This document shows, in pieces, positions 25,796-47,815 of a stretch of DNA of 64,000 nt. The DNA lies in NCBI RefSeq assembly GCF_015351235.1, contig NZ_JADKSJ010000002.1:434001-498000 (forward strand), read 5' to 3'. Source of the DNA: Plantibacter sp. VKM Ac-2880. GTDB lineage: Bacteria; Actinomycetota; Actinomycetes; Actinomycetales; Microbacteriaceae. The notes beneath the pieces are model-generated. The model worked only from the letters and a program-made list of their open reading frames with translations, was not told where the DNA came from and ran no database searches. The position numbers and the translations under genes are program-made. Position 1 is the stretch's first letter, and every line of letters starts with the position of its first letter.

Positions 25796-25845
25796 ATGTC
25801 ATCGATGTCATGGCGAGCATACCCCGTTCATGTCATCGATGACAT
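25796..25845 (-). promoter_or_regulatory. Paired LacI-type operators and promoter
   Basis: Two related palindromes with a central CG: site 1 ATGTCATCGATGTCAT (25796-25811, one mismatch) and site 2 ATGTCATCGATGACAT (25830-25845, perfect), with centres 34 bp apart. On the minus strand a -10-like TATGCT lies between them (plus-strand positions 25817-25822), so site 2 covers the -35 region and site 1 the transcription start. The same arrangement recurs at 47742-47792 beside a paralogous LacI gene. Confidence 0.75.
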
Positions 25846-25902
25846 ACCCCAGCGTGAATTCTTCGGAAACGGTGCGCCCGAGGGCGGCCGAGGCTGCTGG
25901 GC

Positions 25903-26958
25903 TCAGTCGCCGAAGTCGTCCGTCGCCGACTCGAACACGATCTCGAGGTCGACCTCGAAGGACTCCCCCGGTTCGAGCACTCGTCCGACCTTCCCGCGGT
26001 CCGGACCGACGGCGTGACTCGGCCAGCAGGTGCCCGGTTCGATGCCGAGGGCGTACGAGCCTGCCGCCGTGCTGCGCCACACGGTGAGGAACGGCAGCTG
26101 GTCAGGGCGGAAGCGGATCGAGACCGTCCCCACCTCGCCGGCCAGCGTCGCGGTGGACCAGCCGTCGGCACCGGCCACGGCGTCCAGGGCGTCCACCTGC
26201 TCATCGGCCGCGGGCTCCGGCTCCTCGATCACCCGTCGCCACGGACCGTCACCCGACGGTCCGGACACGGGGTCAGCGGACGGCTCGGCCTCGGCCGCCA
26301 CGACCGCACCGCCGTGCAGCAGTGGCCACCCGAGGTTCACGTGGTAGAGCAGCCGCACCGGCTCGGCGACGAATCCCTCGTTGCGGACCACGTCATGCAG
26401 GCGGACCCGCGCGACACCGACCTCGGCACGGATGCTACGGGTCACCGTGAGGTTCTGCTGGAAGACGGCGCCCTCGCGCAGGAATCCGTCGACGAGGAGC
26501 TCGTACCGCCCCTCCTCGGTCCAGCGGCCCTCGCTCCGCGTGAGCGTCGCCGGGATCCTGGACGCCCGTCCGTGCATCCCGCCCTCGGCCTCCGACGCCA
26601 CCCCGACCGCCGTGAGCCCGCAGGTCGTCAGCAGACCACCCTGCCAGCGCCTGGCCCAGCTCTCCGCGTGCGGCGCGGTCGTCGGCGCGACGAAGGACAC
26701 GACGTCCCCGTTCCAGGACGCCTCGCCGAGGTCGAGGAACTGGTCGACCTCGACGGTCGCCTCCAGCCCGCCGAGGTGACGGAGTTCGATCTGCCGCCGC
26801 CCGACCGACGGACCGTCGTCGACCCGCACGGGACGCGGCGCCCACGCCCGTTCGACCGCGCCGGAGCGCGCCTCGACGAACCGTCGCCGCCGTGTCCCCC
26901 AGGCGGCGTCGCCGGCGAGGTCGGGGGCTGGGTCACCGTGCAGGTCGGAGTCGGTCAT
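25903..26958 (-). CDS. DUF4432 family (aldose 1-epimerase-like) protein
   Basis: Mutarotase-like protein of the DUF4432 family, 351 aa. It has the galactose-mutarotase-fold pattern, with WQGGLLTTCGL, a central His-containing MHGRASRIP, the VRLLYHVNLGWPLL strand region and the YALGIEPGTCWPS block near the C-terminus. DUF4432 proteins occur in sugar and sugar-acid catabolic operons and probably interconvert anomers. It is the last gene of the long minus-strand operon that starts at 34253. GAGGA precedes the ATG. The next 50-odd bases downstream already belong to the promoter of the following operon. Confidence 0.87.
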   Translation of the reverse strand: MTDSDLHGDPAPDLAGDAAWGTRRRRFVEARSGAVERAWAPRPVRVDDGPSVGRRQIELRHLGGLEATVEVDQFLDLGEASWNGDVVSFVAPTTAPHAESWARRWQGGLLTTCGLTAVGVASEAEGGMHGRASRIPATLTRSEGRWTEEGRYELLVDGFLREGAVFQQNLTVTRSIRAEVGVARVRLHDVVRNEGFVAEPVRLLYHVNLGWPLLHGGAVVAAEAEPSADPVSGPSGDGPWRRVIEEPEPAADEQVDALDAVAGADGWSTATLAGEVGTVSIRFRPDQLPFLTVWRSTAAGSYALGIEPGTCWPSHAVGPDRGKVGRVLEPGESFEVDLEIVFESATDDFGD

Positions 26959-27042
26959 GGCTGGTCCTCGGGTCTGGTCGGGGGGCGGTCTGGTGGGCGG
27001 GGGCGGACGGTGTGCGGGATGGTGTTGGGACGAGTCGGGCGC

Positions 27043-27810
27043 TCAGAGCGCCGTGTAGCCGCCGTCGATCACGAGACTCTGGCCCGTGAGGTAGGACGAG
27101 GCGTCCGAGGCGAGCAGCAGGACGAGCCCGTGCAGATCCTCCGGCTGTCCCATCCGTCCGGCGGGGATGGCGGACGTCCACGCCGCGGCGAGGTCCGGGT
27201 TCGCCTCGGTGAACTCGCGGGTCATGTCGGAGAGGAAGTACCCGGGGGCGATCGCGTTCACCCGGACGCCCGCCGGCGCCCACTCCACGGCCAGGGAGGA
27301 GGCGAGGTGACTGACGGCCGCCTTCGACGTGTTGTAGGAGGCCTGGAACTGCGGCTGGTTCACGATGAACGCCGACATCGAGGAGATGAAGACGGCCGAC
27401 GCCGGACGGCCGGCGGCGATCGCGCGGCGGGCGAAGGACTGCGCGGCGAAGAAGGTGCCGTCCAGGTTCACGGCGAGCACCTTGCGCCAGGTGTCCGGCG
27501 CGACGTCGACACTGTCGCCCCAGATCGTGATACCCGCCGCAGTCACGAGCAGTGACGGCGCGCCGAGCTCGGCCTCGGCGGTCGAGAAGGCCGCCTCGAC
27601 GGCCTCGGCGTCGGTCACGTCGACCGTGATCCCGACACTGCGGACCCCGTGTTCGGCGGCGAGCTGCTCGGCCGACGCCTGCACGGCGGGCAGCAGGTCG
27701 AGCAGGGCGACGTGGACACCCTGGGCGGCGAGCGCTGTCGCGATCGAGAAGCCGAGCCCGCGGGCCCCGCCGGTGATGACCGCGGTGCGGCCGTTGAGGT
27801 CGGAGAACAT
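27043..27810 (-). CDS. SDR family oxidoreductase
   Basis: Classical short-chain dehydrogenase, 255 aa: NAD(P)-binding TGGARGLG near 14-21, active-site Ser in FISSMSAF and YNTSK (Tyr and Lys), and the usual end VIDGGYTAL. The acidic residue after beta-2 (LLDLLP) suggests NAD+. In sugar operons such proteins oxidise polyols to ketoses or sugar acids to keto acids. It is the second of two successive SDR genes. GGGAG is 5 nt before the ATG. It converts a substrate that cannot be named from sequence. Confidence 0.9.
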   Translation of the reverse strand: MFSDLNGRTAVITGGARGLGFSIATALAAQGVHVALLDLLPAVQASAEQLAAEHGVRSVGITVDVTDAEAVEAAFSTAEAELGAPSLLVTAAGITIWGDSVDVAPDTWRKVLAVNLDGTFFAAQSFARRAIAAGRPASAVFISSMSAFIVNQPQFQASYNTSKAAVSHLASSLAVEWAPAGVRVNAIAPGYFLSDMTREFTEANPDLAAAWTSAIPAGRMGQPEDLHGLVLLLASDASSYLTGQSLVIDGGYTAL

Positions 27811-27877
27811 CAGGACTCCCTGCTGGTGGGTGGACGGTGGATGGAAGTGTGGCTGGAGGTGGGGCTCGGCACGGCGG

Positions 27878-28624
27878 TCAGATCTCCTGGTCCGTCGGCA
27901 GGATCACGAGGTCGCGGATGGTGACGTGGCGGGGGCGGGTGAGCATGAAGAGCACCGCGTCCGCGACGTCCTCCGAGCGGATGCCGGTGCGTGCCGCGAC
28001 CTGGTCGTCGACCCCGTCGGCGCCCTCCGCGATCCCCCACAGCTCGTTCAGCACCACGCCGGGAGCGACGGCGCCCATCCGCACCCCCGAACCGACGAGG
28101 TTGCGCCGGGTGGTGTGGACGAACGACTGCATGGCGTGTTTCGTGGCCGAGTACACCGGTTCCCAGTGGATGTCCTGGTGGCCGGATACCGAACTCGTCA
28201 CGAGGACGTCGCCGGAGCCCTGAGCGATGAGGTGCGGCAGCGCGGCCCGCACGGTCGCCATCGCGCCCAGGACGTTGACGCCGACGAGCTCCTGGATCGC
28301 CGTCATCGGGGTGTCGGCGAAATCGCCTCCGACGTAGAGCCCGGCGTTCGCGAGGACGACGTCGAGGCGACCGAAGGCGGCGAGGGCGAGCGCGACGGCC
28401 TGTTCCGAGACGGCAGGATCGGCGAGGTCGCCGGCGAGGAACACGCTCTCGACCGGGAGGGCGTCGGCGAGGGCCGCGAGCCGCTCGGTGGATCGGCCGA
28501 CGAGGACCGTGCGCACGCCCACCGTGGCGAGCGCCTGCGCGTACGACCGGCCGATGCCCGAGGATGCACCGGTGATGATGGCGACCTGCCCGCCGAGGTC
28601 GATGGTGCCGTCCGGTCCGGTCAT
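27878..28624 (-). CDS. SDR family oxidoreductase
   Basis: Short-chain dehydrogenase, 248 aa, with TGASSGIG near 17-24, NAG motif VVLANAGLYVGG and active-site SSVSG...YSATK. Arg-containing VGRSTER after beta-2 suggests NADP(H), unlike the neighbouring SDR. It could therefore act as a ketose/aldose reductase, with the pair shuttling a polyol between redox forms. It overlaps the aldolase gene upstream by ATGA (28621-28624) and is part of the six-gene overlapping chain. Confidence 0.9.
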   Translation of the reverse strand: MTGPDGTIDLGGQVAIITGASSGIGRSYAQALATVGVRTVLVGRSTERLAALADALPVESVFLAGDLADPAVSEQAVALALAAFGRLDVVLANAGLYVGGDFADTPMTAIQELVGVNVLGAMATVRAALPHLIAQGSGDVLVTSSVSGHQDIHWEPVYSATKHAMQSFVHTTRRNLVGSGVRMGAVAPGVVLNELWGIAEGADGVDDQVAARTGIRSEDVADAVLFMLTRPRHVTIRDLVILPTDQEI

Positions 28625-29463
28625 GCGTCTGCCCCGTCCTGTGCCGTCGTGGCACGGTTCGTCGTCGGTTCCGGCGACGCCAGGGCGGCGCGCCGGAGGA
28701 GTTCGTCGGGTCTCGTGTCGATCCGCGCGACGGCTGCGTCGTCGAGGTACACGGGGCCGCCCGCCGCCAGCGCGCCGAGGAGCACCTGGGCGACCTTGAC
28801 GGCCATCTCGGTGATCCGCAGGACCTCCGCGCTGTCGGAACCGAGCGCGAACATGCCGTGGTTCCGGAGGTAGACGACCTTGGGCACCCGGCCGGTCGCC
28901 TCGATCCTGTTCCGCAGGAGGCGTCGAACCACCCGGGCGAGCCCCAGCCCCGGGTCGACGTAGGGCACGAGCAGCGGGTCGGGGCCGAGCACGACGATCT
29001 GGTCGGGAAACAGCGAGCCGCGGGTCAACGCCTCCGCGGACACCGAGCAGAGCAGGGCGTTGACGGGGACGGGATGGGTGTGGCCGACCGCGGCGACGCC
29101 GGGCAGGTCGAGACAGACGGCGTGGAGGATCGCCTCGACAGAGGGCCGCCTGCCGTTCCCGGCGAGTGACGCCGCGTCGAAGAGCGCGTCGACCTCGGCG
29201 TCGCCTCCCCTGTCGGCGTCGACGAGCTCGAGGACGGACGGGAGCTCCAGTCGGACGGCGTCGTCGGCGGTCGCCGTGGCCATCGACGTGCCACTCGCCT
29301 TCACGAGCATGGTCGGGGTTTCGGTGCCAGGGAGCAGGAGGGAGGTGTTGCCCTCGGCGAGCAGCGCCCAGGCACGATCCGGGCGGCCGAGTTCCCGGGA
29401 GAAGGTCGCGAGCCGTCCTCGCGTCTCCGCCTCGGTCTCCGGTCGGTCGGTCGGGTGCGTCAT
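28621..29463 (-). CDS. Class II aldolase/adducin family aldolase
   Basis: Zn-dependent aldolase of the fuculose-1-phosphate/rhamnulose-1-phosphate superfamily, 280 aa. Visible motifs are AEGNTSLLL near 36-44, VKASGTSMATATADD, the zinc histidines in GHTHPVPVNALL and the distal third ligand in LRNHGMFALG. Members cleave ketose 1-phosphates to DHAP plus an aldehyde. It is flanked by a rhamnulokinase-like gene (ATGA overlap 29460-29463) and an SDR (ATGA overlap), so a kinase-aldolase pair acting on a ketose is likely. No isomerase is present in the window. Confidence 0.88.
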   Translation of the reverse strand: MTHPTDRPETEAETRGRLATFSRELGRPDRAWALLAEGNTSLLLPGTETPTMLVKASGTSMATATADDAVRLELPSVLELVDADRGGDAEVDALFDAASLAGNGRRPSVEAILHAVCLDLPGVAAVGHTHPVPVNALLCSVSAEALTRGSLFPDQIVVLGPDPLLVPYVDPGLGLARVVRRLLRNRIEATGRVPKVVYLRNHGMFALGSDSAEVLRITEMAVKVAQVLLGALAAGGPVYLDDAAVARIDTRPDELLRRAALASPEPTTNRATTAQDGADA

Positions 29464-30941
29464 GTCTGTCCCTGTTCCTGATCGTCGGCGGGGTCGTCGC
29501 GGTGACCCCGGTACACGGCCTCGAGCGACGGAGCGCGGCCGGCGGCCACGAGTTGGACGGCGAGGTTGCCGAGCGCCGAGGCTTCGGCCGGGCCGGCGGT
29601 GACGGGCAGGCCGGTCAGCTCCGCTGTGCGTGCGCAGAGCAGCCGGTTGCGGGATCCGCCGCCGACGATGCGGACCGAACGGATCGGGACGCCGGTCAGT
29701 GCCGCAGCGGCCCGACCGCTCGCGGCGTACGCTGCGGCGAGGCTCTCGATCACACTGCGGACGAGGTCCACGCGACCGCTCGGCGCGGTGCCTCCGGCCG
29801 CTCGGCACAGCGCCGTGATGCGGGCCGGCATGTCGCCCGGGACGAGGAGTCGGGGGTCGGCGACGTCGAACACCGTGGGCGGCACGGCCTCGGCCGATTC
29901 GGCGGCCACGGTCGCGGCGTCGACGAGCTCCACCGGGTCGACGGCGTGTCCGTCCTCCTCCGACCAGGCCCGCGCGCACTCGGTGAGCAACCACATGCCG
30001 GTGAGGTTGCGGAGGAGGAGCGACGATCCCGCGGCGCCGGCCTCGTTGGTGAACCCGGCGAGCCGCGCGGGCTCATTGAGGATCGGCTCGGCGAGACACA
30101 CGCCGGCGAGCGACCAGCTGCCACTCGAGACGAGCAGCTCGGCGCCGTCCGGGCGGGCGAACGCGAGCGCCGACGCCGTGTCGTGCTCAGCGACCCGGTG
30201 GACGGGGATCGCGGAGCGCGCCCCCAGACGGGCGGTGACCTCCGGCGTCGTCGACCCGGCGAGGGTGCCCGGTGCGACCACCGGTGGGAAGCGGAACCCG
30301 CCGAGCCCCCACCGCTCGATGAGTGCCCCAGCCCAGTCGCCGGAGCGCTGATCGAGGAGCTGGGTCGTGGAGGCGATCGTCCGCTCGGCACCGACGACGC
30401 CGGTGAGCAACCACACCCAGAGGTCGGGGACCAACAGGACGGTCGGTGCCTCGGTCGGCGGCGGTCCGGCCTCCGAGCCCGCAGCGAGCGACCGCAGCTG
30501 GAAGGCGGTGTTGATCGGGTGTTCGATCACGCCCGTGACCGCGTACGCCGCGGCGGGGTCGACGAGGGCGGCGGCGCGCTCCGGCTCGTGCTCGTCCGCA
30601 CCGCGGTGGTGCCGGACCTCGGGGACGGACGAGGCGAGACGCGAGGCGCCGAGAACGGGCAGGCCGACGTCGACGCCCCAACTGTCGATCCCGATGCCGT
30701 CGAGTGCGCCGCCCGCCGCCTCAGCGTGGCGGACCGCCGCTGCGAGCCCCGTCAGCGTCTCCTCGAACAACCGCTCGGCGTCCCACACGAGCCGGCCGTC
30801 GCGCACGACCGGGCCGTTCGGGAACCGGTGCACCTCGACGAGCCGGAGCTGCTCGCCGTCCCACCGCCCCACGATGACGCGACCGCTCGACGCGCCGAGG
30901 TCGACGGCGGCGTGGAAGCTCGGGACGGCGGAGGCGGTCAT
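29460..30941 (-). CDS. Rhamnulokinase-like FGGY kinase
   Basis: FGGY kinase of the RhaB subgroup, 493 aa. The N-terminus AAVDLGASSGRVIVGRWDG and VEVHRFPNGPV, then DSWGVDVGLP, and the C-lobe SSGSWSLAGV and VGGGSRNRLLCARTAE are typical of rhamnulokinases, which phosphorylate L-rhamnulose or similar ketoses at O1. The adjacent class II aldolase would then split the 1-phosphate. The full L-rhamnose pathway is not shown because no L-rhamnose isomerase or mutarotase RhaM was recognised. Another 6-deoxy or pentulose substrate is possible. ATGA overlaps on both sides. Confidence 0.88.
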   Translation of the reverse strand: MTASAVPSFHAAVDLGASSGRVIVGRWDGEQLRLVEVHRFPNGPVVRDGRLVWDAERLFEETLTGLAAAVRHAEAAGGALDGIGIDSWGVDVGLPVLGASRLASSVPEVRHHRGADEHEPERAAALVDPAAAYAVTGVIEHPINTAFQLRSLAAGSEAGPPPTEAPTVLLVPDLWVWLLTGVVGAERTIASTTQLLDQRSGDWAGALIERWGLGGFRFPPVVAPGTLAGSTTPEVTARLGARSAIPVHRVAEHDTASALAFARPDGAELLVSSGSWSLAGVCLAEPILNEPARLAGFTNEAGAAGSSLLLRNLTGMWLLTECARAWSEEDGHAVDPVELVDAATVAAESAEAVPPTVFDVADPRLLVPGDMPARITALCRAAGGTAPSGRVDLVRSVIESLAAAYAASGRAAAALTGVPIRSVRIVGGGSRNRLLCARTAELTGLPVTAGPAEASALGNLAVQLVAAGRAPSLEAVYRGHRDDPADDQEQGQT

Positions 30942-31942
30942 CGCGGCTCGACCTCCGACCGGGGTGGTGTCGCCGGTTCGCGCAGAGGCGTCCCCGGGTC
31001 GGGGTCGCGGACGGCGATCGGCAGCGGTGCACCGTCGAGCGAGGTGAGGACCGTCGTCGCGCTCGACACCGCGAGCGCACCCCAGGCGGCGGCCGTCGCG
31101 ACGGCGGCCGCCGGATCGTCCTGGCCGTCCGGCCCGCGGAGGCCGACGAGGAAGCCGGCGAGCGAGGCGTCTCCGGCACCGGCGGTGTTGACCACGGTCG
31201 CCGCGGTGTGGGCGTGCCACAGGCCGGCGGACGAGCGCACGAGCGCACCGTCGGCACCCATGCTCACGTAGACGAGGTCGCAGCCGGCCCGGTGCAACTC
31301 GTCAGCCGCGGCGGCGACGTCACCGATCGTCAACAACTCCCGGCCGGTGAGTTCGGCGAGTTCGTGGGCGTTCGGTTTGAGCAGGTGCACGAGGTCGAGG
31401 TTCGCGACGGCGGTCTCGAGGGCCACACCGGCGGTGTCGACGGCGACGCGCGCTCCGCGACCCCCGGCCTCCCGCAGCAGCTCGAGGATGTCGACGAGCC
31501 CGCCACCCTCCGTGACCGTGGGGATCGTCCCGGAGAGGACCAACCAGTCCGCACCGATCCGGTCGATCTCGCGCGCCGACGCCGCGACGACCGCGGCCCA
31601 GTCGGCGGCCCGCAACGGGATCGCGGGCTCGTTCACCTTGGTCGTCCCGGTCGCGTCGTCGAGGATCGTCGTGTTCACCCGGGTCCGTCCATCGGTCGGG
31701 ACCACGGCGAGCAGGGGCTGCAGGGCGGGGTCGCCCGCGAGGATCCGCCCGTCCTCCCCCATCGGGACGACGGCTCGGACGGGCAGCCGGGAGAGGGTCA
31801 CGGCCCTGGCGACGTTGACGCCCTTCCCGCTCAGCTCGGTCGAGACGCCGACCGCCCGGTTGACGTCACCCAGCCGCAGCCCGTCGACGCGGTAGGTCTG
31901 GTCGATCGCGGCGGCCGGCGTGACCGTGACGATGCCGCTCAT
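30938..31942 (-). CDS. PfkB family 1-phosphofructokinase/tagatose-6-phosphate kinase-like
   Basis: Ribokinase-fold kinase of the FruK/LacC subgroup, 334 aa. The N-terminal sugar-site pattern VTVTPAAAIDQTYRV and SGKGVNVARAV is diagnostic for hexose-phosphate kinases that make bisphosphates. KPNAHELAELTGREL and the C-terminal anion-hole NTAGAGDASLAGFL follow, with the catalytic Asp in GAGD. It would make a ketose 1,6-bisphosphate, a substrate for the class II aldolase encoded at 35.2 kb or the LacD-type aldolase at 23.3 kb. ATGA overlaps on both sides. Confidence 0.88.
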   Translation of the reverse strand: MSGIVTVTPAAAIDQTYRVDGLRLGDVNRAVGVSTELSGKGVNVARAVTLSRLPVRAVVPMGEDGRILAGDPALQPLLAVVPTDGRTRVNTTILDDATGTTKVNEPAIPLRAADWAAVVAASAREIDRIGADWLVLSGTIPTVTEGGGLVDILELLREAGGRGARVAVDTAGVALETAVANLDLVHLLKPNAHELAELTGRELLTIGDVAAAADELHRAGCDLVYVSMGADGALVRSSAGLWHAHTAATVVNTAGAGDASLAGFLVGLRGPDGQDDPAAAVATAAAWGALAVSSATTVLTSLDGAPLPIAVRDPDPGTPLREPATPPRSEVEPR

Positions 31943-32697
31943 GCGCCGACCCCGATCGTCTCGACGCGGACGCCGGTCGCAAGCAGTACCTCGAGCCCGC
32001 CCGGATCGGCATCGCCCGCGAGGAGCACGGTGGCGAGGCTCCCGGCCGGTACCGAGGCGGCCAGCCCACCCGCGCCGAACGTCTCCGGATCGACCAGGAG
32101 GATCGCCGACCCGGCCAGATCCACCGCCGTGGCGACCACGGCGGCCTCCTCCGGCGACGCGTGGAGCAGCCGGCCGTCGGCGGTGACACCGAGCGCTTCG
32201 ACGACGGCGACGTCCAGACGGAGACCGCTCAGCTGCTCACGCGCCCAGGCACCCGTGAGGAGTCCGTGGTCGTCCGCGGTGCCACCGATGAGGTGGACGA
32301 CGGCCCGTTCGTCTGCGAGCGCGGCCGCGAGCGCCACCGGCACGGAGCCCGTGACCAGGACGGTGCCCGGGGTGGGCGCGAGTCGCGCCGCGAGCGCCTC
32401 GCAGGCCGAGCCGCCACCGAGGAAGACGGCGGAACCGGCGTCGATGAGCGTCAGGGCGCGGTCGGCGAGGGCGGCGGCCGCGCGGAGGTCGGGGTGCCGG
32501 TCGGTGTCGAGGTCCGATCGGACCGCACCGCCGTGCGCGCGCCGGAGCAGCCCGTCGAGTTCGAGCGCGCGCAGGTCGCGCCGGATCGTCTCCTCGGTCA
32601 CGCCGAGCACGGCCGACAGCGCACCGACCTCCACACGACCGTGTGCCTCGAGCCGGTCGAGGATCGCCCGACGCCGGACGTCGACGCTGCCGCTCAT
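31939..32697 (-). CDS. DeoR/GlpR family regulator
   Basis: DeoR-type regulator, 252 aa: N-terminal winged helix with RRRAILDRLEAHGRVEVGAL and TEETIRRDLRALE, then the HGGAV hinge and a C-terminal sugar-phosphate sensor (DeoRC). It is embedded in the middle of the operon between the L-xylulokinase-like and PfkB genes, with ATGA overlaps on both sides (31939-31942 and 32694-32697). It is probably an autoregulator of this operon responding to a phosphorylated intermediate. Confidence 0.92.
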   Translation of the reverse strand: MSGSVDVRRRAILDRLEAHGRVEVGALSAVLGVTEETIRRDLRALELDGLLRRAHGGAVRSDLDTDRHPDLRAAAALADRALTLIDAGSAVFLGGGSACEALAARLAPTPGTVLVTGSVPVALAAALADERAVVHLIGGTADDHGLLTGAWAREQLSGLRLDVAVVEALGVTADGRLLHASPEEAAVVATAVDLAGSAILLVDPETFGAGGLAASVPAGSLATVLLAGDADPGGLEVLLATGVRVETIGVGA

Positions 32698-34253: not shown

Positions 34254-34317
34254 CGGCGGCCTTCCGTTCGTCGTCATCGTCGTCGCGACCGGAGCACGCG
34301 CGGTTTGCGTGGCGCCC

Positions 34318-34376
34318 GATCATGTTGATCTTTGCACCGATCCCACCGAATCGGAAGGGATATCGGGCGGATTCGG
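34318..34376. promoter_or_regulatory. Divergent operon control region with two inverted repeats
   Basis: Between the kinase operon (minus) and the second DeoR gene (plus) are GATCA-TGT-TGATC (34318-34330, 5-bp arms) and CCGAATC (34346-34352) / GATTCGG (34370-34376) with a 17-bp spacer. Both are plausible operators for one or both DeoR proteins encoded on either side. Confidence 0.45.
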
Positions 34377-34405
34377 ATACGATGACCTGACCGGACGGAG
34401 CAGTC

Positions 34406-36044: not shown

Positions 36045-36082
36045 GACTCGTCGCCGACCCGACCGTCAGTCGATCGAGTCGT

Positions 36083-39517: not shown

Positions 39518-39650
39518 GTCGTTCTCGTTCCTTTCCAGCCGGTCCCGGTGGACGGGTCCGGCGTGTGGTGGCTGTCGTACCGCCGATCGGGGCGGTGGTG
39601 TGGGGTGTTCGGGTGTCTGGTGGTCCTGGGTCCTGCGCTCGGCGGGGGCG

Positions 39651-40745
39651 TCATCGGATGCCTCCCGCGCTGAGGCTCGCCGGCCAACCGGCTCCGGGTC
39701 CTGCGACGAGCACGGTGGCCTCGCCGGTGACGGTCCACGGACCGAACCCGGCGGGGACCGCGAGGACCTCGCCGGCGGACACCGCGACCGGTTCAGCACC
39801 GTCCTCGGGTACCAGGGACCCTGCGCCGGTGAGGGCGAGGGCGACCGAGAAGCCGGCGTCGACGGGGTCGCTGCCGTCCGCGCCGGGCGCTATGGCGAAG
39901 AGCTGGAAGTAAGGGTCCGCGGCAGCGGGGAGCAGGCTGACGGGCGTGTCCGTCCGGGCGTCGAGGTCGTGCTGGACGACGAGCCTGGCGATCTCCGACT
40001 CGGGCAGGGCGGTGGTCGAGACCGCGCCCATCACCGTGTCGAAGCCGAGCCCGAGGTGGGACTCCTCGCGCGTCGAGGTCGTGACCGACCACTCGAGCAG
40101 GATGGAGAGGTCGGTGGGCTCCTGGACCTCGGTGAGGAAGATCCCGCCGTCGATCGCGTGTGCGGTGCCGGCCGGGACGAGGATGCCCATGCCGCGTTCG
40201 ACGACGATGCGGTTCATGTGGGCGAGCATCCACTCGCTGTCCTGGGCGTCCCGGCGGCGGTCGAGTTCCTCGGGGTCGACGTCCTCGCTCCATCCGAGGT
40301 GCACGGCGGAGCCCGGCTCGGCGTCGAGGATGAACCAGGCCTCCGTCTTGCCGTAGGCGCAGTCGAGGTGCGAGGCAGCGAAGGCGCGGTCGGGGTGCAC
40401 GTGGACGGGCAGGCGCTGCCGGGCATCGAGCAGCTTCACGAGGATGCCGGTGTCGGCGGCGTCGGTGCCGGAGTCGCGGCCTGCGCCGGTCCACTGCTGA
40501 GGGTCGGCGGCGACGAGGTCGCGGAGGAGGACGCCGTCGACGGTCCTGGCGAGGCCGATCGCACCGCCGGGCTCCTGGTCGGCGCGGCTCACCGTGGCAC
40601 CGAGCCACTCCTCGGGCTGGAACTCGCTCTGCTGCTCGATCCCCCGCAGGGCGGCGATCCGGTCGCCGCCACGGTAGAAGTGCTCGATGAGGTTCGGCGC
40701 GAGTCGCGTCGGCTGGGCGAGCCTCGTGGGCTGGGTCGTGCTCAT
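39651..40745 (-). CDS. manA: Mannose-6-phosphate isomerase, class I
   Basis: Type I phosphomannose isomerase (mannose 6-phosphate to fructose 6-phosphate), cupin fold, 364 aa, cytosolic. Zinc-site motifs are LPVHVHPDRAFA, GKTEAWFILDAEPG and PAGTAHAIDGG. It lies between the LacI gene (ATGA overlap 40742-40745) and the ABC genes, so the imported sugar or a product is expected to become a mannose-type phosphate. It could be a dedicated catabolic copy rather than the housekeeping enzyme. The 133-bp gap after it carries the ribosome site of the ATPase gene and nothing else recognisable. Confidence 0.9.
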   Translation of the reverse strand: MSTTQPTRLAQPTRLAPNLIEHFYRGGDRIAALRGIEQQSEFQPEEWLGATVSRADQEPGGAIGLARTVDGVLLRDLVAADPQQWTGAGRDSGTDAADTGILVKLLDARQRLPVHVHPDRAFAASHLDCAYGKTEAWFILDAEPGSAVHLGWSEDVDPEELDRRRDAQDSEWMLAHMNRIVVERGMGILVPAGTAHAIDGGIFLTEVQEPTDLSILLEWSVTTSTREESHLGLGFDTVMGAVSTTALPESEIARLVVQHDLDARTDTPVSLLPAAADPYFQLFAIAPGADGSDPVDAGFSVALALTGAGSLVPEDGAEPVAVSAGEVLAVPAGFGPWTVTGEATVLVAGPGAGWPASLSAGGIR

Positions 40746-41803
40746 GCTGCTGGTCCTCCGACCATGGTCGTGGTGGATGCGGTGTCCGCATCGACGGTGT
40801 GCTGCCGGGCCGGCCCGGCGATCTCGCCGGAACCGCGGGGAACGAGCGAGGTCGGGACGATCCACTCGCGGGGCTCGTCCGTCGGCGACTCGCGCAGTTC
40901 CAGCAGCCGCTCGATCGCGGCGGTGCCGATGACGAACGGGTCCTGGTTGATGCAGCTGACGGCCGGTCGCAGCACGTCGGCGAGGATGAAGTCACCGAAC
41001 GCGATGTGCGCCGTCCCTTCGCGCCCGATGCGGTGCAGCGACGTCGTCAGGCCGATCGCGGCTTTCGCGTTGGAGGCGAAGAACGCGGTGGGCGGGTTGT
41101 CGAGGCCGAGCAGTCGCTCCGTCTCGGCGGCGTAGTCGAGGGTGCCGTCGATGGTCCAGGAGACGAGGGACGGGTCGAGCTCGATGCCGGCCTCCGCCAG
41201 CACGTCGGTGTACCCCTGGTACCGGCGGCGGATGGTGAGGAAGCGCTCGTCGCGGTCGTAGAAGGCGATGCGGGTGTGGCCGAGCTCCACGAACTGGCGG
41301 ATGGCGAGCTGCGTGGCGCCGTAGTCGTCGACCACGACGCTGTCGAACGCAGCCAGTGGGCGGTCCACGGCGACGACGGGGGTCACGTTCCGGAAGGCCT
41401 CCAGGTAGGGCAGCTCCGCTGCGACCGGGGCGATGATGACGCCGGCGACCTGGTGCCCGGCGATGAAGCCGGTGAGCTGGTCGCGTTCACGACGCTCGTC
41501 GAGCCCGGTGCTCGCCACGAGGACGCTGAGGCCCTCCTTGAGCGCTCGGGCTTCGATGGCGCTCACGAGCGAGGCGAAGAACGGGTCGGCGAGCGAGTCG
41601 ATGAGCACGCCGATCGCGCCACCGGTGCCGGACTTCAACGAACGGGCGGCTGTGTTGGGCACGTACCCGAGGCGATCGATCGCCTCGAGCACGCGGCTTC
41701 TGGTCTCGGGGTGGACGGACGCTTCGCCGTTCACCACTCGCGAGACGGTCTTGATGCTGACGCCGGACTGCGCAGCGACATCCTTGATCCCGGGCGGCCG
41801 CAT
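40742..41803 (-). CDS. LacI family regulator of the manA-ABC operon
   Basis: LacI-type repressor, 353 aa: HTH IKDVAAQSGVSIKTVSRVV, hinge YVPNTAARSLKSG and a sugar-binding sensor domain (GVLIDSLADPFFASLV, VVAVDRPLAAFDSVVVDD). It is the first gene of its own operon and follows a promoter with GACAACGTTGTC operators, which argues for autoregulation. The same operator recurs at 53630-53643. The start at 41803 is the methionine just before the HTH. The C-terminal 30 residues are a Thr/Ala-rich tail beyond the family's usual end. Confidence 0.93.
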   Translation of the reverse strand: MRPPGIKDVAAQSGVSIKTVSRVVNGEASVHPETRSRVLEAIDRLGYVPNTAARSLKSGTGGAIGVLIDSLADPFFASLVSAIEARALKEGLSVLVASTGLDERRERDQLTGFIAGHQVAGVIIAPVAAELPYLEAFRNVTPVVAVDRPLAAFDSVVVDDYGATQLAIRQFVELGHTRIAFYDRDERFLTIRRRYQGYTDVLAEAGIELDPSLVSWTIDGTLDYAAETERLLGLDNPPTAFFASNAKAAIGLTTSLHRIGREGTAHIAFGDFILADVLRPAVSCINQDPFVIGTAAIERLLELRESPTDEPREWIVPTSLVPRGSGEIAGPARQHTVDADTASTTTMVGGPAA

Positions 41804-41938
41804 CAGCGGGTCCCCCGGTCGTGCGAGAGAGCGGTTCCGAGGGGGCCGTCGGTGTGGAGCGGCAGCGCGTGCGCACTCGTCCGGATCGGACTGGTCGCGG
41901 GGTTCGCGGGGTTGCAGGTGCCCATGGGCTCCACCTCC

Positions 41939-42042
41939 TGACAGCGTTGTCATCGTTCGGGGTGGTGCAGCTGCAGAACCCCGTCGTTCCTTGGTGCGCC
42001 TATACTGACCGCAGACCGACAACGTTGTCAAGCAACGTTGTC
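41939..42042 (-). promoter_or_regulatory. lacI-manA promoter with three AACGTT operators
   Basis: On the minus strand a -35 TTGACA (42031-42026) and a -10 CAGTAT (42007-42002) are 18 bp apart. The perfect palindrome GACAACGTTGTC (42018-42029) covers the -35. A partial copy CAACGTTG (42033-42040) lies just upstream, and TGACAGCGTTGTCA (41939-41952, one mismatch) lies about 50 bp downstream of the start. This layout allows looping or roadblock repression. Confidence 0.75.
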
Positions 42043-42135
42043 CGAAAGAGATCAAATTCATTTGGAACTCGCATCGATGAGGCGTTCTGACCCCTCGGAT
42101 GCGGGTCGCCACCCCGGAATCATCGAGGAGTCAGC

Positions 42136-43344
42136 GTGATCGTCGTCGTCGCAGGAGCAGCCGGAAGCGGTAAGACCACCCTCGGGCGCGAGCTCGCACG
42201 AGCCCTGCGGCTGCCGCTCCTCGACCTCGACACGATCACCAACCCCCTGCTCGACGGACTCGGCCCGGTCGCCGACCCCGAGGGCGCCGAGCCACGGCAC
42301 TGGAACGACCCCGCGCTCCGCTCGACCATGCGACCGGCACGGTACGCGGCGCTCCGCGCGGTCCTCGCCGACCAGCGCGACAACGGGGTCGGCGCAGTGC
42401 TCGTCGCGCCGTTCACCGCGGAGCTGCGCGGCGGAGCCGAATGGGACGCACTCGTCGAGGCGGCCGGGGTTGTCCCGAAGGTCGTCTGGCTGCGTGCCGA
42501 CGCCGCCACGCTCGCCGCCCGCCGGGCCCAGCGCGGAGCCGAGCGGGACTCGCACATCGTCGACCCGGCGACCGACACGCCGCCGGCGATCGAGCACCTG
42601 TCGGTCGAGGCGGCCCTCTCCACGCCGCAGCAGCTCGCCGCCGTCCAGCGTGCGCTCGGCCTCGGCCGGACCATCGAGGCGACCGCGCCGATCTTCGATC
42701 AGGTCTTCGCCGCCGGACTCTTCGACCTCGACGGGACCCTCATCGACTCGACGCCCGCCGTGAACCGGTCGTGGGCGCAGCTGGCCCGCGAGTACGGCTT
42801 GGAGGTCGACCTGCTCGCCGAAGGGCACGGCCAGCCCGCAGCCCAGGTGCTCGCCGCGAGCTTCCCGCCGGACGAGGTCGCCGGAGCGCTCGCACGGATC
42901 ATCGAGATCGAGTCCGAGGAGGTCGCGGACGTCATCGCGCTCCCCGGGGCTGCGGAGGCGCTTGCGGCGCTCGGCGACGACGCGAAGGCGATCGTCACGA
43001 GCGGCACCCGGCTCATCGCTGGGAACCGGATCGCGGCCGCCGGGCTCGTGCGGCCGGAGGTCGTGGTGACCTTCGACGACGTGACGAAGGGCAAGCCCGA
43101 CCCGGAGCCCTTCCTCCTCGGCCGGTCGCGGCTCGGCATGGAGGCACAGCTGTGCGTCGTATTCGAGGATGCACCGGCGGGGCTCGCCGCCGCACGTGCC
43201 GCGGGGTGCTGGACGGTCGGGATCGCGGGGACGCACGAGGCGCATGAGCTCGACGCCGACCTCGTGATCGACGGCTTGTTCCAGCTGCGGCTCGAGCCCG
43301 TCGCCGAGGGCGGCTTCCGGCTCGTCCCGGCGTCGCTCGGCTGA
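42136..43344 (+). CDS. Fused P-loop kinase and HAD phosphatase
   Basis: Bifunctional-looking protein, 402 aa. The N-terminal half (about 1-190) is an AAA/adenylate-kinase-like P-loop kinase domain with VVAGAAGSGKTTLG, resembling gluconokinase or zeta/chloramphenicol-kinase-type folds. The C-terminal half (about 193-395) is a HAD sugar-phosphatase domain with motif I FDLDGTLIDS (196-205), motif II VTSGT, motif III KGKPDPEPF and motif IV VFEDAPAG. Both active sites look intact. It is divergent from the LacI-ManA-ABC operon and shares its operator-bearing control region. GTG start with GAGGAG 5 nt upstream. Which sugar is phosphorylated and which dephosphorylated is unknown. Confidence 0.85.
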   Translation: MIVVVAGAAGSGKTTLGRELARALRLPLLDLDTITNPLLDGLGPVADPEGAEPRHWNDPALRSTMRPARYAALRAVLADQRDNGVGAVLVAPFTAELRGGAEWDALVEAAGVVPKVVWLRADAATLAARRAQRGAERDSHIVDPATDTPPAIEHLSVEAALSTPQQLAAVQRALGLGRTIEATAPIFDQVFAAGLFDLDGTLIDSTPAVNRSWAQLAREYGLEVDLLAEGHGQPAAQVLAASFPPDEVAGALARIIEIESEEVADVIALPGAAEALAALGDDAKAIVTSGTRLIAGNRIAAAGLVRPEVVVTFDDVTKGKPDPEPFLLGRSRLGMEAQLCVVFEDAPAGLAAARAAGCWTVGIAGTHEAHELDADLVIDGLFQLRLEPVAEGGFRLVPASLG

Positions 43345-43348
43345 GCCG

Positions 43349-43729
43349 GTCCCGGTCCCTGAGCCTGTCGAATGGCGGTCCCTGAGCCTGTCGAAGGGCG
43401 GCACCGCTGGCCCTGTCGAAGGAGCGCCCCTGCCCCTGCCGAGGGACCCTTTCCGAATCCGTCGAGGAGTGCTCGGTCCCTGAGCTTGTCGAAGGGCACT
43501 CCCGGACGCCGAACCCGCCGCGGGACTTCGGTCCCTGAGCTTGTCGAAGGGCGCTCCGGCCGCCGAGCCCACACCACGGCCCCCCGGTCCCTGAGCTTGT
43601 CGAAGGGCACACGGACGACTCCCCTCGTGCTCGAAACCCGGCCCCTCGGTCCCGGAGCTTGTCGAAGAGCGTTCCGGTCGCCGAATCCGTAACGTCGCAT
43701 CCTCGTTCCCTGAGCTTGTCGAAGGGCAC
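43349..43729. repeat. Extragenic repeat array, about eight copies, one orientation
   Basis: Units of the form GGTCCCTGAGCTTGTCGAAG recur at about 43353, 43378, 43474, 43530, 43586, 43647 and 43705, with a truncated copy near 43410. Spacers are about 25-60 bp and unrelated in sequence, unlike the exact tandem arrays further right. All copies face the same way. The array fills the gap between the fusion gene and the HNH gene. Confidence 0.85.
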
Positions 43730-43753
43730 ACGAACAGACCTCATCTGTTGCTT

Positions 43754-43777
43754 AAAAAGCCAGATCAGCAGGTTTTT
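43754..43777. terminator. A/T-tracted hairpin before the HNH gene
   Basis: AAAAA-G-CC (43754-43761) can pair with GGTTTTT (43771-43777) around a 9-nt loop, with one bulged G. It is conspicuously A+T-rich for this genome and looks like a two-way terminator insulating the HNH gene from the repeat array. Confidence 0.4.
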
Positions 43778-43820
43778 CCATCCACGTTCCAGTGTCGGGG
43801 GTCCGTGTTTGGATGGACTC

Positions 43821-45308
43821 ATGACCAGCACCGCACCGAACCCCCTCGCCGCCGCCGCGGCCGGGTTCGATGCCGTGTGGCACGGCGCGCTCGACGCGAT
43901 CCGTGCCGGGTCGAATGTCGCGGAGCAGCTCGAGAACATGAACGGTGAGGCCCTGTTCCGGGTCCTCGATGAACTCGGGGCCGTGCAGCACGCGGTCGAG
44001 GTCCTCGCGGCGCGGGTGACCGGGGCGATCGCGCTCCGGCCGTCGCCGACGGGCCGCGACGGATCACTCGTTCGCGCAGCCGGCTATGCCAACCCTGGTG
44101 TGATGGTGTCCGAGCGGTGGCGGGTGACGCGCGCCCACGGTTCAGCCATCGCGGAGGTCGGCGCCGCGATCACCCAGCCGCGCGTGCTCCTCGGTGAGCT
44201 GGAGGAGTGCCCGTTCCCCGCGATCGCCGCCGCCCTTGAGGCGACACCAGGTACCGACGATCCCTGCGCTCCCGCCGAAACGGATGGTGACGGGCCCATT
44301 GCAGGCAGCACGGCGCCCGCCCCGCTCAGCGTCGACGGTGCAGCCGTCATCGTCCGCGAACTCCGGAACACTGGCCGTATCTGCGCCACGGCCGAGCTGC
44401 AGGCCGCGTCGGCGATCGCGGTCGAGCACGCCGCCCACGCACCCCTGCAGGACGTCGTCCGCATCGCGAAACTCGTCCGCACCCGCCTCGACCAGGACGG
44501 CCGAGAACCCCGCGACGAACTCCTCCGCCGAGCCGAACGCGCCACCCTCACGGAACTCCCCTCCGGCATGACCCTCCTCCGCGCCGAACTCGCCCCAGAA
44601 AGCGCCGCCTTCGTCCGCGCCGGCCTCGACGCGCTCATCAACGCCGGACTGCGCCGACCGTCCTTCGTGGACGCCGACACCGACACCGACACCGATCAGC
44701 CCGAGGGGTCCGGGGCCGTCATGCCGGACGGCCTGTCGGTGATCCCCACCGACCGGCGCCGCGCCATCGCCCTCACCGAGATCTTCCGCCACACCGCCGG
44801 CTGCAGTGGCGCCGCGACCGAGCTCGCACCCGTTTCCGTCGTCATCCGCGTCGACCACGACACCCTCGAAACCGGTGCCGGCACAGCCACCATCGACGGC
44901 ATCGAAGAACCCATCGGCGCAGGCGCCCTCCGCCGACTTGCCGCGGACGCGAGAATCATCCCCATGGTCCTCGACGGACCCTCACACGTCCTCGACCTCG
45001 GCACCGGCACCCGCCTGTTCTCCCGCGCCCAGAAACTCGCCCTCGCCGAACGCGACGGCGGCTGCGCCTGGACCGGCTGCACCCACCCACCCTCCTTCAC
45101 CGAAGCCCACCACCTCACCTGGTGGTCAGCAGGCGGACCCACCGACCTCGACAACGGCATCCTCCTCTGCCCCTTCCACCACCACCGCATCCACGACGAC
45201 CACTGGACCATCGACGTCCGCGACGGCATCCCCTGGTTCATCCCACCAGGCACCATCGACCGACACCGAACCCCCATCCGCGGCGGACGCATCCGCCTCG
45301 CCGCCTGA
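43821..45308 (+). CDS. DUF222 and HNH endonuclease domain protein (13E12 repeat family)
   Basis: 495-aa protein with an N-terminal DUF222 region (about residues 20-370) and a C-terminal HNH nuclease motif: CAWTGCTHPPSFTEAHHLTW near 415-434 with zinc-type cysteines and histidines, then NGILLCPFHHHRIHDD. The family is multi-copy and dispersed in actinobacterial genomes and resembles intron- or element-linked homing nucleases. The ATG at 43821 is chosen from the family N-terminus and a weak leaderless-type box (TTGGAT) 6 nt upstream. The 3' third is strongly C-rich on this strand compared with neighbours. It is flanked by copies of the extragenic repeat on both sides. Confidence 0.9.
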   Translation: MTSTAPNPLAAAAAGFDAVWHGALDAIRAGSNVAEQLENMNGEALFRVLDELGAVQHAVEVLAARVTGAIALRPSPTGRDGSLVRAAGYANPGVMVSERWRVTRAHGSAIAEVGAAITQPRVLLGELEECPFPAIAAALEATPGTDDPCAPAETDGDGPIAGSTAPAPLSVDGAAVIVRELRNTGRICATAELQAASAIAVEHAAHAPLQDVVRIAKLVRTRLDQDGREPRDELLRRAERATLTELPSGMTLLRAELAPESAAFVRAGLDALINAGLRRPSFVDADTDTDTDQPEGSGAVMPDGLSVIPTDRRRAIALTEIFRHTAGCSGAATELAPVSVVIRVDHDTLETGAGTATIDGIEEPIGAGALRRLAADARIIPMVLDGPSHVLDLGTGTRLFSRAQKLALAERDGGCAWTGCTHPPSFTEAHHLTWWSAGGPTDLDNGILLCPFHHHRIHDDHWTIDVRDGIPWFIPPGTIDRHRTPIRGGRIRLAA

Positions 45309-45346
45309 CACACGATGCGTGGCACCCGCCTGCCCGCGCACCCCTG

Positions 45347-45366
45347 CCCTTCGACAAGCTCAGGGA
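45347..45366. repeat. Single extragenic repeat copy
   Basis: One unit CCCTTCGACAAGCTCAGGGA lies between the convergent HNH and mannitol-type dehydrogenase genes, in the opposite orientation to the array upstream of the HNH gene. Confidence 0.85.
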
Positions 45367-45413
45367 GCGCACCCCGACAAACTCGGCGACAGGTGCCGCG
45401 CTCGCTCCACGGG

Positions 45414-46907
45414 TCAGCCCGCGGCGACGACCTCCTCGACGGCCGCCCGCGCACCGACGGCCGCAAGGCGCGCCCGGGCCTCGACGAACGCCTCACGGAG
45501 CCGCACATCCTGGCCGAGGTCTCCGAAGACGACCTCCAGATCGAGGAACGCCCCGGGGTTCTCGACCTCCTGGGCGACGGCCGCCTGGAGTTCGGCAAGC
45601 CTCCGATCCACCGGCTGCAGCTCCCGACCGTCGTCACCGACACCCTCGATGAACCGGCTCCACGCCGCCAGCACGAGCGCTGAGCGTGCAACCCCTCCGC
45701 CGGCTCGCAGCTGCTCCCGCACCACGGGGAGCAGGAACTTGGGGATCCGTTCCGACCCGTCGACGATCTGCCGGGCCAACGTGTCCTTGATCGCTTCACT
45801 GCCGAACCGACGCATCAGCTCAGCACTGTAGGCGTCGAGGTCGATCCCCGGCACCGGCGCGAGCGTCGGCCTCGCCTCCTCGTGCATGTAGCCGAGGAGG
45901 AAGCGGGCGAAGAGGTCGTCACGGCAGACGTCGTGGACGTACGTCTCCCCCGCCAGCAACCCCAGGTAGCTCATCGCCTGATGCGAGGCGTTCAGCAGCC
46001 TGAGCTTCATCAGCTCGTACGGTTCCACGTCCTCGACCAGCTGCACCCCCACCTGCTCGTACGGCGGACGGCCGTCACTGAAGTCGTCCTCCAGCACCCA
46101 CTGCTCGAACGACTCCGACAGCACCGGCCACCGGTCCTCGATCCCGAACCGCTCCGCGACCATCTCCCGCTGCTCATCCGTCGTCGCCGGGGTGATTCGG
46201 TCCACCATCGAGTTCGGGAAGCGCACCTCGGCGGCGATCCAAGCCGCCAACGACGGGTCGATCCGTTCGGCGAACGCGAGGATCGCCGTGCGGGCGACGT
46301 GACCGTTGCCCTGGATGTTGTCGCAGGACATGACGGTGAACGGCACCGCACCCGCGTCCCGTCGAGCACGCAGGCCGGCGGCGATGAACCCGAGCGGGCT
46401 CTGCGGCAGCGCACCCGCGGGCAGGCCGTCGAGCTCCGCGAGGGTCGCTCCGTCGCTCGGTTCGAACGCGCCTGTCGCGTCGTTGACGCCGTAGCCGCCC
46501 TCGGTGATCGTGAGGGACACGATGCGGGTCGAGGGGTCACTCACCCGGGCCAGGACGACGGCCGGGTCGTCGGGCGCGAAGAGGTACTCGACGATCGAAC
46601 CGACCACGCGCGCCTCGGCCTGGCCGTCGGGACTCGTCGTCACGAGCGTGTACAGCCGGTCCTGGGCACCGAGTGCGTCCCGCATCGCCGCATCGCCTGG
46701 CAGGGTGCCGACGCCGACGAGCCCCCAGGACGCATGCTCCCCACCGGGCAGGGCGAGCACGCGGTCGACGAACATCGCCCCGTGGGCACGGTGGAAGGCA
46801 CCCACACCGAAGTGGACGATGCCGGGACGGACCGCGGAACGGTCGTAGGACGGCACAGCCACCTGCGGGTCGAGGGCGGTGAGAGTGGCGTCGGAGAGCT
46901 GGGTCAT
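45414..46907 (-). CDS. Mannitol dehydrogenase family (long-chain polyol) oxidoreductase
   Basis: Polyol 2-dehydrogenase of the long-chain PSLDR family, 497 aa, which oxidises mannitol, arabinitol or similar polyols to ketoses (or reduces uronates) with NAD+. Visible: nucleotide-binding VHFGVGAFHRAHGAMF near 31-46, TITEGGYGVND, SCDNIQGNGHVARTAI, FPNSMVDRITPAT, and the catalytic Lys/Asn/His segment MKLRLLNASHQAMSYLG. It lies upstream of no other gene on this strand except the FrcK-like kinase gene 48 bp before it, so the pair probably turns a polyol into a phosphorylated ketose. Confidence 0.92.
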   Translation of the reverse strand: MTQLSDATLTALDPQVAVPSYDRSAVRPGIVHFGVGAFHRAHGAMFVDRVLALPGGEHASWGLVGVGTLPGDAAMRDALGAQDRLYTLVTTSPDGQAEARVVGSIVEYLFAPDDPAVVLARVSDPSTRIVSLTITEGGYGVNDATGAFEPSDGATLAELDGLPAGALPQSPLGFIAAGLRARRDAGAVPFTVMSCDNIQGNGHVARTAILAFAERIDPSLAAWIAAEVRFPNSMVDRITPATTDEQREMVAERFGIEDRWPVLSESFEQWVLEDDFSDGRPPYEQVGVQLVEDVEPYELMKLRLLNASHQAMSYLGLLAGETYVHDVCRDDLFARFLLGYMHEEARPTLAPVPGIDLDAYSAELMRRFGSEAIKDTLARQIVDGSERIPKFLLPVVREQLRAGGGVARSALVLAAWSRFIEGVGDDGRELQPVDRRLAELQAAVAQEVENPGAFLDLEVVFGDLGQDVRLREAFVEARARLAAVGARAAVEEVVAAG

Positions 46908-46955
46908 GGGTGGTGCCTTCTCGTCGGTGAGGGGTTCCGGATGGTGCGGTGGTCG

Positions 46956-47648
46956 TCAGACGCCGTGGCTGGACTCGGTGGCCAACGGCGTGGTGGCGTC
47001 GAGGGTCACGACGCGGGTGGCGCGATGCTTCGTGGCGTCGACCAGGCGGGCGTTCGGCTCGTCGACCCCGAGCACCCAGGCTTCGGCCTCGTCCCGCGGG
47101 TGGCCGTGACCGAGCCGTCTGGCGATGAGGCGTTCGCGGCGGAGCTCGTCGTCAACGTCGACGTACCAGGACTCGTCGAGGTGCCGGGCGATGCCATCCC
47201 AACCGTGATCGTCGAACAGCAGGTAGTTGCCCTCCGTGATGACGAGCGGCACCTCGGGACGCACGAGGACCGCGCTGCCGATGGAGACCTCGAGGGAGCG
47301 GTCGAACCGGGGCGCGTAGACCGCGGCGCCGGGCAAATCCTCCGTGCGACCGCTCGTGGCGAGCCGCGCCAGCAGGGCGACATAGCCGTCGACGTCGAAG
47401 GTGTCCGGGGCGCCCTTGCGATCGCGTCGCCCGAGGCGGACGAGTTCGGGGTTGTCGAGGTGGAAGCCGTCCATGCCGACGATGACCGCCTGGTCGCCGA
47501 GGGCCGCGGCGAGCGTGTCGCTGACGGTCGACTTCCCCGCCCCGGGTGCGCCGACGATCCCGAGGATGCGTCGCGAGCCGGCGGCGGCGAGGGTCCGCGC
47601 GCGGTCGACGAGCTCGTCGAGGCTGGTCCCGGTCGTGCTGCCGCCCAT
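46956..47648 (-). CDS. Nucleoside/fructose kinase-like P-loop protein (FrcK-like)
   Basis: Uridine-kinase/pantothenate-kinase-like P-loop kinase, 230 aa, with Walker A GAPGAGKST at 33-41, GMDGFHLDNPEL, the KGAPDTFDVDGYV block and TEGNYLLFDD. Proteins of this type sit in sugar operons. FrcK of the rhizobial fructose locus is the named example, so a ketose kinase role is more likely than nucleoside salvage. The start at 47648 is chosen because the frame upstream is Arg-rich without similarity. A well-formed promoter (TTGACA, 17 bp, TACCGT) lies 59 bp upstream. Confidence 0.82.
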   Translation of the reverse strand: MGGSTTGTSLDELVDRARTLAAAGSRRILGIVGAPGAGKSTVSDTLAAALGDQAVIVGMDGFHLDNPELVRLGRRDRKGAPDTFDVDGYVALLARLATSGRTEDLPGAAVYAPRFDRSLEVSIGSAVLVRPEVPLVITEGNYLLFDDHGWDGIARHLDESWYVDVDDELRRERLIARRLGHGHPRDEAEAWVLGVDEPNARLVDATKHRATRVVTLDATTPLATESSHGV

Positions 47649-47706
47649 CGTGATGCCCCACCTCTCGTCGGGTCGGCGTCGTCGCGGTCGCGCCGTCGCC
47701 CGACTC

Positions 47707-47815
47707 ACGGTAGGTCCACGGGATGTCCGTGTCAACCGCGTATGTCACCGGTGTCACGGCTTTCGTGTGCATTTCCATGTCACGGGTGACATGACCGTGA
47801 TTCCGTGGATATGAT
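47707..47815. promoter_or_regulatory. Divergent promoters with paired LacI-type operators
   Basis: Minus-strand promoter: -35 TTGACA (47735-47730), 17 bp, -10 TACCGT (47712-47707). Plus-strand promoter: -35 TGACAT (47787-47792), 17 bp, -10 TATGAT (47810-47815). Operators are ATGTCACCGGTGTCAC (47742-47757), abutting the minus-strand -35, and ATGTCACGGGTGACAT (47777-47792), covering the plus-strand -35. Centres are 35 bp apart. The sites closely resemble those at 25796-25845. Confidence 0.78.

Follow-up and report, generated by a model that had tools for sequence, protein, structure and literature searches.

The stretch analysed here, 64,000 nucleotides of contig NZ_JADKSJ010000002.1 of Plantibacter sp. 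VKM Ac-2880 (the window), carries a carbohydrate/polyol gene island with two paralogous LacI-family repressors, LacI_A and LacI_B, and two pairs of palindromic sites. We consider it likely that these sites are the operators of the two local repressors, that the central base step (the core) follows the type of repressor, and that the A lineage switched its core after duplication, placing the two modules in separate circuits. To judge from relatives, a circuit that a single repressor can operate seems to have been shared out here between two.

LacI_A would repress fggyA-aldA-lacI_A from a pair of sites with the core TC|GA, and LacI_B would repress the divergent units kinB-mdhB and sdrB-lacI_B from a pair of the CC|GG type, each repressor presumably being released by a sugar of the pathway. 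The core goes with the repressor type present and not with the downstream gene. Once A and B had been duplicated, the lineage of A (Plantibacter, Herbiconiux and Mycetocola) probably exchanged its CC|GG core for TC|GA; alongside this, Arg5 of its repressor would have become Gln and Thr52 would have become Arg, leaving the two modules under separate circuits.

Predicted operators

The four 16-mers lie where the original prediction had placed them, and each occurs once in the window. Predicted operators A1 (25796..25811; ATGTCATCGATGTCAT; one of eight base pairs broken) and A2 (25830..25845; ATGTCATCGATGACAT; a perfect palindrome, none broken) both have the core TC|GA. B1 (47742..47757; ATGTCACCGGTGTCAC; two pairs broken) has CC|GG, and B2 (47777..47792; ATGTCACGGGTGACAT; one pair broken, at the centre) has CG|GG; no strand is assigned to any of these sites. 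The diverged central steps of the two pairs, the centre distances of 34 base pairs (bp) for A and 35 bp for B, and the break in the right half of the first site of either pair are all as originally described.

A1 and A2 lie just before fggyA (24331..25743, minus strand), the first gene of an operon and an FGGY carbohydrate kinase by synteny and PF00370 (N-terminal domain only). It is followed on the same strand by aldA (23293..24213), a DeoC/LacD-family aldolase (PF01791) that adjoins lacI_A in relatives, and by lacI_A itself (22226..23215), and LacI_A therefore probably represses its own operon. The earlier statement that each pair adjoins a LacI system holds to the extent that the A pair heads the lacI_A operon, but the pair is 2.6 kb from the lacI_A start. 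B1 and B2 are located between two divergent units, kinB (46956..47648) and mdhB (45414..46907) on the minus strand, and sdrB (47870..48598) and lacI_B (48654..49655) on the plus strand. A promoter scan found a single promoter-like site at the B promoter, GTGACA-18-TATGAT, the first hexamer of which starts at 47786 and the second of which ends at 47815; B2 overlaps GTGACA. The same scan found no site at the A promoter. Binding and repression are inferred, and the four sites fit the role of operators of LacI_A for fggyA-aldA-lacI_A and of LacI_B for kinB-mdhB and sdrB-lacI_B.

The frame ATGTCAYSSRTGWCAY, derived from the sites themselves, matches these four places only in the 4.03 Mb genome when no mismatch is allowed. 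At one mismatch, on both strands, only two further places appear, both of them sites of a third paralog, LacI_D (another row being site 25796 on the opposite strand); the reversed control of the frame gave no match at up to one mismatch. At three mismatches the genome holds 455 forward matches versus 57 for the control. Such loose matches are meaningless, since a near-identical pattern at three mismatches is no commoner in the window (32) than in shuffles (mean 29.3). Because the sites themselves supplied the frame, an argument from rarity alone is circular in part, and conservation is the stronger evidence. Across six Plantibacter genomes 63 of the 64 site columns are invariant. At the A pair this holds for 32/32 site columns versus 16/18 in the spacer and 149/183 of all non-site columns, and at the B pair for 31/32 versus 5/19 and 162/220; the footprint is sharp mainly at B because the surroundings of A are also well conserved. 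In 26 genomes picked because they encode a LacI of this kind, the relaxed pattern WGWCAYCGRTGWCW occurs at 2 to 11 sites per genome (six in the Plantibacter genome under study).

In Plantibacter the spacing is 34 bp, except for 35 bp only at B of the window. Across genera it ranges from 31 to 35 bp in the A clade, and is 24 bp for the B pairs of loci L176, L177 and L179 and 67 bp in the Microbacterium group. The common layout of 34/35 bp is thus not kept beyond the genus, and these distances rule it out as a design shared across genera.

The LacI_A and LacI_B proteins

LacI_A and LacI_B are paralogs with 59% identity, and alignment agrees with the description of their recognition helices as differing by SK versus AK. 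Both join an N-terminal LacI helix-turn-helix (HTH) domain to a periplasmic-binding-protein-like sensor domain, as in the LacI/GalR family; PF00356 (71.4 and 66.2 bits) and PF13377 (83 and 80.5 bits) are over the cut-off in the two proteins. Residue (AA) numbering is that of GalR as used in the available part of Camas et al. (PMC2978694), and fits without a shift. LacI_A has Gln at AA-5, SK at AA-15/16 and the hinge A51 R52 T53 F54 R55, while LacI_B has Arg at AA-5, AK at AA-15/16 and the hinge A51 T52 S53 F54 R55. TVSR in the recognition helix, A51 and a hydrophobic residue at 54 (Phe, where Leu is usual) are found in both. Their sites are even palindromes, with CG at the centre of three of the four and GG at that of B2. 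None of the named equivalogs RbsR, GalR, PurR, GntR, IdnR and UriR exceeds its NCBIfam cut-off for either protein, the best match of both being RbsR (NF047341) with 167.2 bits for A and 160 for B versus a cut-off of 382. The nearest relatives of LacI_A, in three Plantibacter records, are 94 to 95% identical to it.

Covariation of core and repressor

The core counts cover 68 distinct LacI proteins with assigned sites, each 250 residues or longer and chosen for having Lys16 and F54-R55; shorter proteins, identical copies and LacIs with another type of hinge or helix were dropped. Sites were taken within 7 kb, or by module in nine loci. Sites lacking GWCA on both sides are dropped from the counts, including TC|GG-like ones beside the second LacI of genomes G302 and G355, and 16 Microbacterium-group rows were matched with a looser outer base in one half. 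Every half-site of 14/14 A-clade rows has T beside the central step (core TC|GA). The corresponding base in the B clade is C in 10/10 rows, except for one of the four half-sites of L176, which belongs to a hybrid site, and the B-clade cores are CC|GG or CG|GG. All 17 Microbacterium-group rows have C at this position. Within Plantibacter there is no mixing, with T only in the six A rows and no T in the six B rows. LacI clade and core co-occur in relatives, the comparison that the original prediction called for, and every distinct A-clade (14/14) and B-clade (10/10) row of the set has a site, where repressor genes kept without the palindromes would have spoken against the prediction.

When 325 columns of the alignment were scanned for how well they explain the core, AA-5 ranked 4, AA-52 ranked 6 and AA-15 ranked 84. 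Rows with Gln5/Arg52 (20 rows) have a weighted T fraction of 0.90, versus 0.09 for those with Arg5/Thr52 (35 rows). The other combinations give 0.40 for Arg5/Arg52 (5 rows), 0.25 for Gln5/Thr52 (1 row), 0.12 for Arg5/Val52 (3 rows), 0.33 for Arg5/Ser52 (3 rows) and 0 for Tyr5/Gln52 (1 row). With exceptions, the core is tracked better by residues 5 (Gln or Arg) and 52 in the hinge (Arg or Thr) than by residue 15. Residue 5 lies near the central base pairs, and in the major groove G is often recognised by Arg and A by Gln. As a cause of the core difference, the two residues are unproven, because the core changed only twice on the tree.

Phylogeny and gene order in relatives

The tree was built from the 68 LacI rows and four LacI_C-type rows, with a midpoint root. 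The A clade is sister to the Microbacterium group together with L083, L084 and L236 (98/91); B joins the two next (99/92), and LacI_D and its relatives lie further out (100/97). This rules out A and B as nearest sisters, and with it the simple A-B sister duplication that had been proposed, since A groups with CC|GG repressors and B lies outside. The suggestion of specificity divergence after duplication survives in part: there are paralogs with conserved operator pairs and split cores, while the A-B sisterhood and the SK/AK difference as cause have to be given up.

Microbacterium-group LacI genes stand in the same fggyA-aldA-lacI order as lacI_A (3/3 such loci listed), but with CC|GG sites. 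Because these sister repressors of the same operon order have CC|GG, the TC|GA core of the A clade is most simply taken as derived. In all three such genomes read at length (G1041, G1043 and G1045) CC|GG precedes both modules, in the second case between kinB-transporter-mdhB and sdrB. No second LacI of this group was found in these genomes at E 1e-70, and one LacI apparently serves both modules there. A similar arrangement is seen in L254 (Microbacteriaceae FW021), whose one LacI is accompanied by CC|GG sites ahead of both fggyA and deoC/gfo and in the gap between sdrB and the transporter. Genome G004 has a single D-clade LacI, with TC|GA at sdrB/kinB and a hybrid TC|GG at the aldolase. In G176 (86% complete, 7% contamination) TC|GA is found at the aldolase module and CC|GG beside sdrB; its repressors, the D-clade L190 and a second, L181 (Gln52), are on separate contigs, and their pairing with the sites is by core only. 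LacI_B is also present in 13 of the 14 genomes with a TC|GA A-type repressor (not in G284) versus none of the 19 with a CC|GG relative from the A sister group; in these counts genomes seen twice were counted once (three Plantibacter, one Herbiconiux and one Mycetocola record) and G541 (L236) was left out. A phylum-wide search added one new distant relative, in G1280, at 44%.

LacI_D and cross-talk

LacI_D (G000:C1:602610-603578), the third paralog, lies outside the island and has three sites, with the core TC|GA as in A. Its locus (L264 / L197) spans about 590000-609900 of G000:C1; on the tree it is represented by L022, which has short flanks and one of the three sites, all three being in L197. 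The five further Plantibacter genomes, with seven candidates per genome scored, gave no counterpart at E 1e-60, and LacI_D was possibly acquired. Because LacI_D shares the TC|GA core of A and its sites are the only other near matches in the genome, cross-talk appears likelier between A and D than between A and B. Hybrid sites in other genera indicate that one altered half-site is tolerated.

Alternative explanations

That the four sites are chance palindromes in GC-rich DNA is hardly conceivable. Near-perfect palindromes are not rare, the window holding 69 sixteen-mers with at most one broken pair, and the frame at three mismatches is no commoner than in shuffles; against this stand the footprint in six genomes and the control for the relaxed pattern, which gave no match in any of the 26 genomes. 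We give little credence to the view that the palindromes belong to some other regulator, such as the DeoR-type protein of the island, with the LacI genes as bystanders. The distance between the A pair and lacI_A would allow it, but the sites are even palindromes in the LacI frame, mostly with central CG, the core goes with LacI type and not with the module across genera, and in the loci read from the Microbacterium group, Herbiconiux and Mycetocola the lacI operon still has the sites close to its head. The original prediction linked the core step to the change between Ser and Ala at residue 15 of the recognition helix, where the two window proteins do differ; AA-15 is also the second correlate of nucleotide 2 (NT-2) across the family in the available part of Camas et al. 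(PMC2978694). Within the present set such a role is very improbable. The A-clade rows, all TC|GA, have Ser (6), Ala (6) or Pro (2) at this residue, so that AK occurs with TC|GA in six of them, and the B-type L176 has SK yet C in three of four half-sites, that is, mainly CC|GG. AA-15 changes 15 times on the tree versus two changes of the core, in keeping with its low rank in the column scan.

A further possibility is that both repressors still bind both cores, the difference of one base pair being tolerated drift and the circuits overlapping. Natural hybrid TC|GG or CC|GA sites occur in L176, L085, L236, L238 to L240, L242 and L243; at all other positions the A sites are no more different from the B sites than members of one set are from each other, and E. 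coli GntR is reported to recognise IdnR sites (PMC4052901, in the part available). We nevertheless regard overlap as unlikely, though not negligibly so, the cores being unmixed in all six A rows and all six B rows of Plantibacter.

Several observations weigh against a split of cores tied to the repressors and to residues 5 and 52. The contrast of 13/14 versus 0/19 is essentially one event, so that its Fisher value does not give a fair probability. G302 and G355 hold two LacIs with CC|GG at both modules, so the split is not needed for coexistence, and the single repressor of the Microbacterium group may reflect loss of B and not the ancestral state. Only two independent pairs are available, with which no sign test can reach 0.05, and statistical proof of covariation was not reached with so few independent changes on the tree. 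Arg52 is accompanied by C in 5/6, 5/8 and 6/12 half-sites of L238, L239 and L240 and in 2/2 of L246_7002, while exceptions for AA-5 are LacI_D (Arg5 yet TC|GA) and L085 (Gln5, mixed); AA-52 alone and AA-5 alone are each weakened as determinants by these rows. Columns 49, 185, 219, 220, 250 and 308 score about equally, and since all but 49 are in the sensor domain, ancestry is a real confounder.

Other features of the island

Two further LacI genes are located in the island. The third, lacI_C (40742..41803, minus strand; PF00356; start taken as the Met of MRPPGIKD), has the hinge A51 R52 S53 L54 K55. Upstream of this gene lie candidate operators C1 (41938..41953; CTGACAGCGTTGTCAT) and C2 (42016..42031; CCGACAACGTTGTCAA; 78 bp from C1); similar pairs precede lacI_C relatives in the Mycetocola and Herbiconiux-type loci L176, L177 and L178. 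The fourth, lacI_E (54779..55810, plus strand; PF00356), is near candidate operator E (53629..53644; GAGACAACGTTGTCTA) at the head of the deoC/gfo genes, a site that is unchanged in all five further loci read from Plantibacter (L171 to L175) as well as in L176, L177, L178 and L179. Like A and B, these candidate sites carry no strand assignment. All of these predicted and candidate operators share one frame and differ mainly at two places: the base at position 2 from the centre is T in A, C in B, A or G in C and A in E, and the outer base of E is A instead of T. We put forward, tentatively and with less than even confidence, that repressor insulation can be followed in this island as a natural series: four LacIs within about 34 kb use one operator frame differing mainly at position 2, a single LacI in charge of both modules goes with a uniform or almost uniform core, and the A/B core would have been split through AA-5 and hinge AA-52, plausibly under selection against cross-talk.

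The mdhB product is a mannitol-dehydrogenase-family oxidoreductase (PF01232, PF08125), for which the NCBIfam scan gave no model above its cut-off, and sdrB, first gene of the lacI_B operon, encodes a short-chain dehydrogenase (PF13561; start chosen from sequence). KinB is a P-loop kinase of the PRK09270 type (NF006743, 271.3 bits versus a cut-off of 227); its start was set from the sequence at the ATG at 47648 instead of the TTG at 47735 listed by the open reading frame tool. Among ten proteins in the NCBIfam scan only KinB exceeded a cut-off, for a general kinase family, and from the enzyme types our guess is that the pathway is a polyol or ketose route. The genes of the island further include one for a DeoR-type protein. 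A DUF222/HNH endonuclease-like gene (43659-45308) lies amid the catabolic genes, and around the island genes, at 42058-43939 and 49558-51733, the translations contain recurrent short motifs (FDKLRDR, LRQAQGP, LSLSKG) that by appearance resemble interspersed DNA repeats. The 4.03 Mb genome has a large set of 41 LacI HTH matches.

Comparison with known systems

Paralogous LacI repressors whose operators diverge have been described before (PMC4052901), as has the link between NT-2 and AA-5 (PMC2978694), both papers being cited here from the portions available. Among the literature matches listed there was no title on this LacI subfamily or these regulators, no role for AA-52 inside an F54-R55 hinge, and no gene set described under both a single shared and two split repressors. 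The escape of duplicated repressors from mutual interference is usually visible only as an end result. Here the relatives display, over the same modules, circuits with one repressor, two repressors with shared cores, and two with split cores.

In the LacI code of Camas et al. 2010, as far as the available text goes, NT-2 is linked to AA-55, AA-15 and AA-5, and AA-52 is not among its correlates (PMC2978694). LacI_A and LacI_B share Arg55, all 68 rows having been selected for F54-R55, and within these rows AA-15 is uninformative whereas AA-5 and AA-52 are informative. The residues tracking the split thus lie outside the recognition helix, and the result for residues 5 and 52 could add a simple position to the engineering of LacI specificity.

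The closest parallel we cite is that of GntR and IdnR, paralogous LacI-family repressors of the gluconate and idonate genes of E. coli (Ravcheev et al. 2014, PMC4052901, in the part available), which like LacI_A and LacI_B are paralogs with related target genes and similar operators. They differ in that GntR is reported on IdnR sites, whereas the Plantibacter cores are, as judged from sequence, cleanly separated. RbsR/PurR and AglR/ThuR, from the same portion of that paper, likewise combine duplication with a later change of motif in one copy. In those systems a new effector or new genes accompanied the change, whereas in Plantibacter a gene set that in relatives is apparently served by one LacI would have been divided between two.

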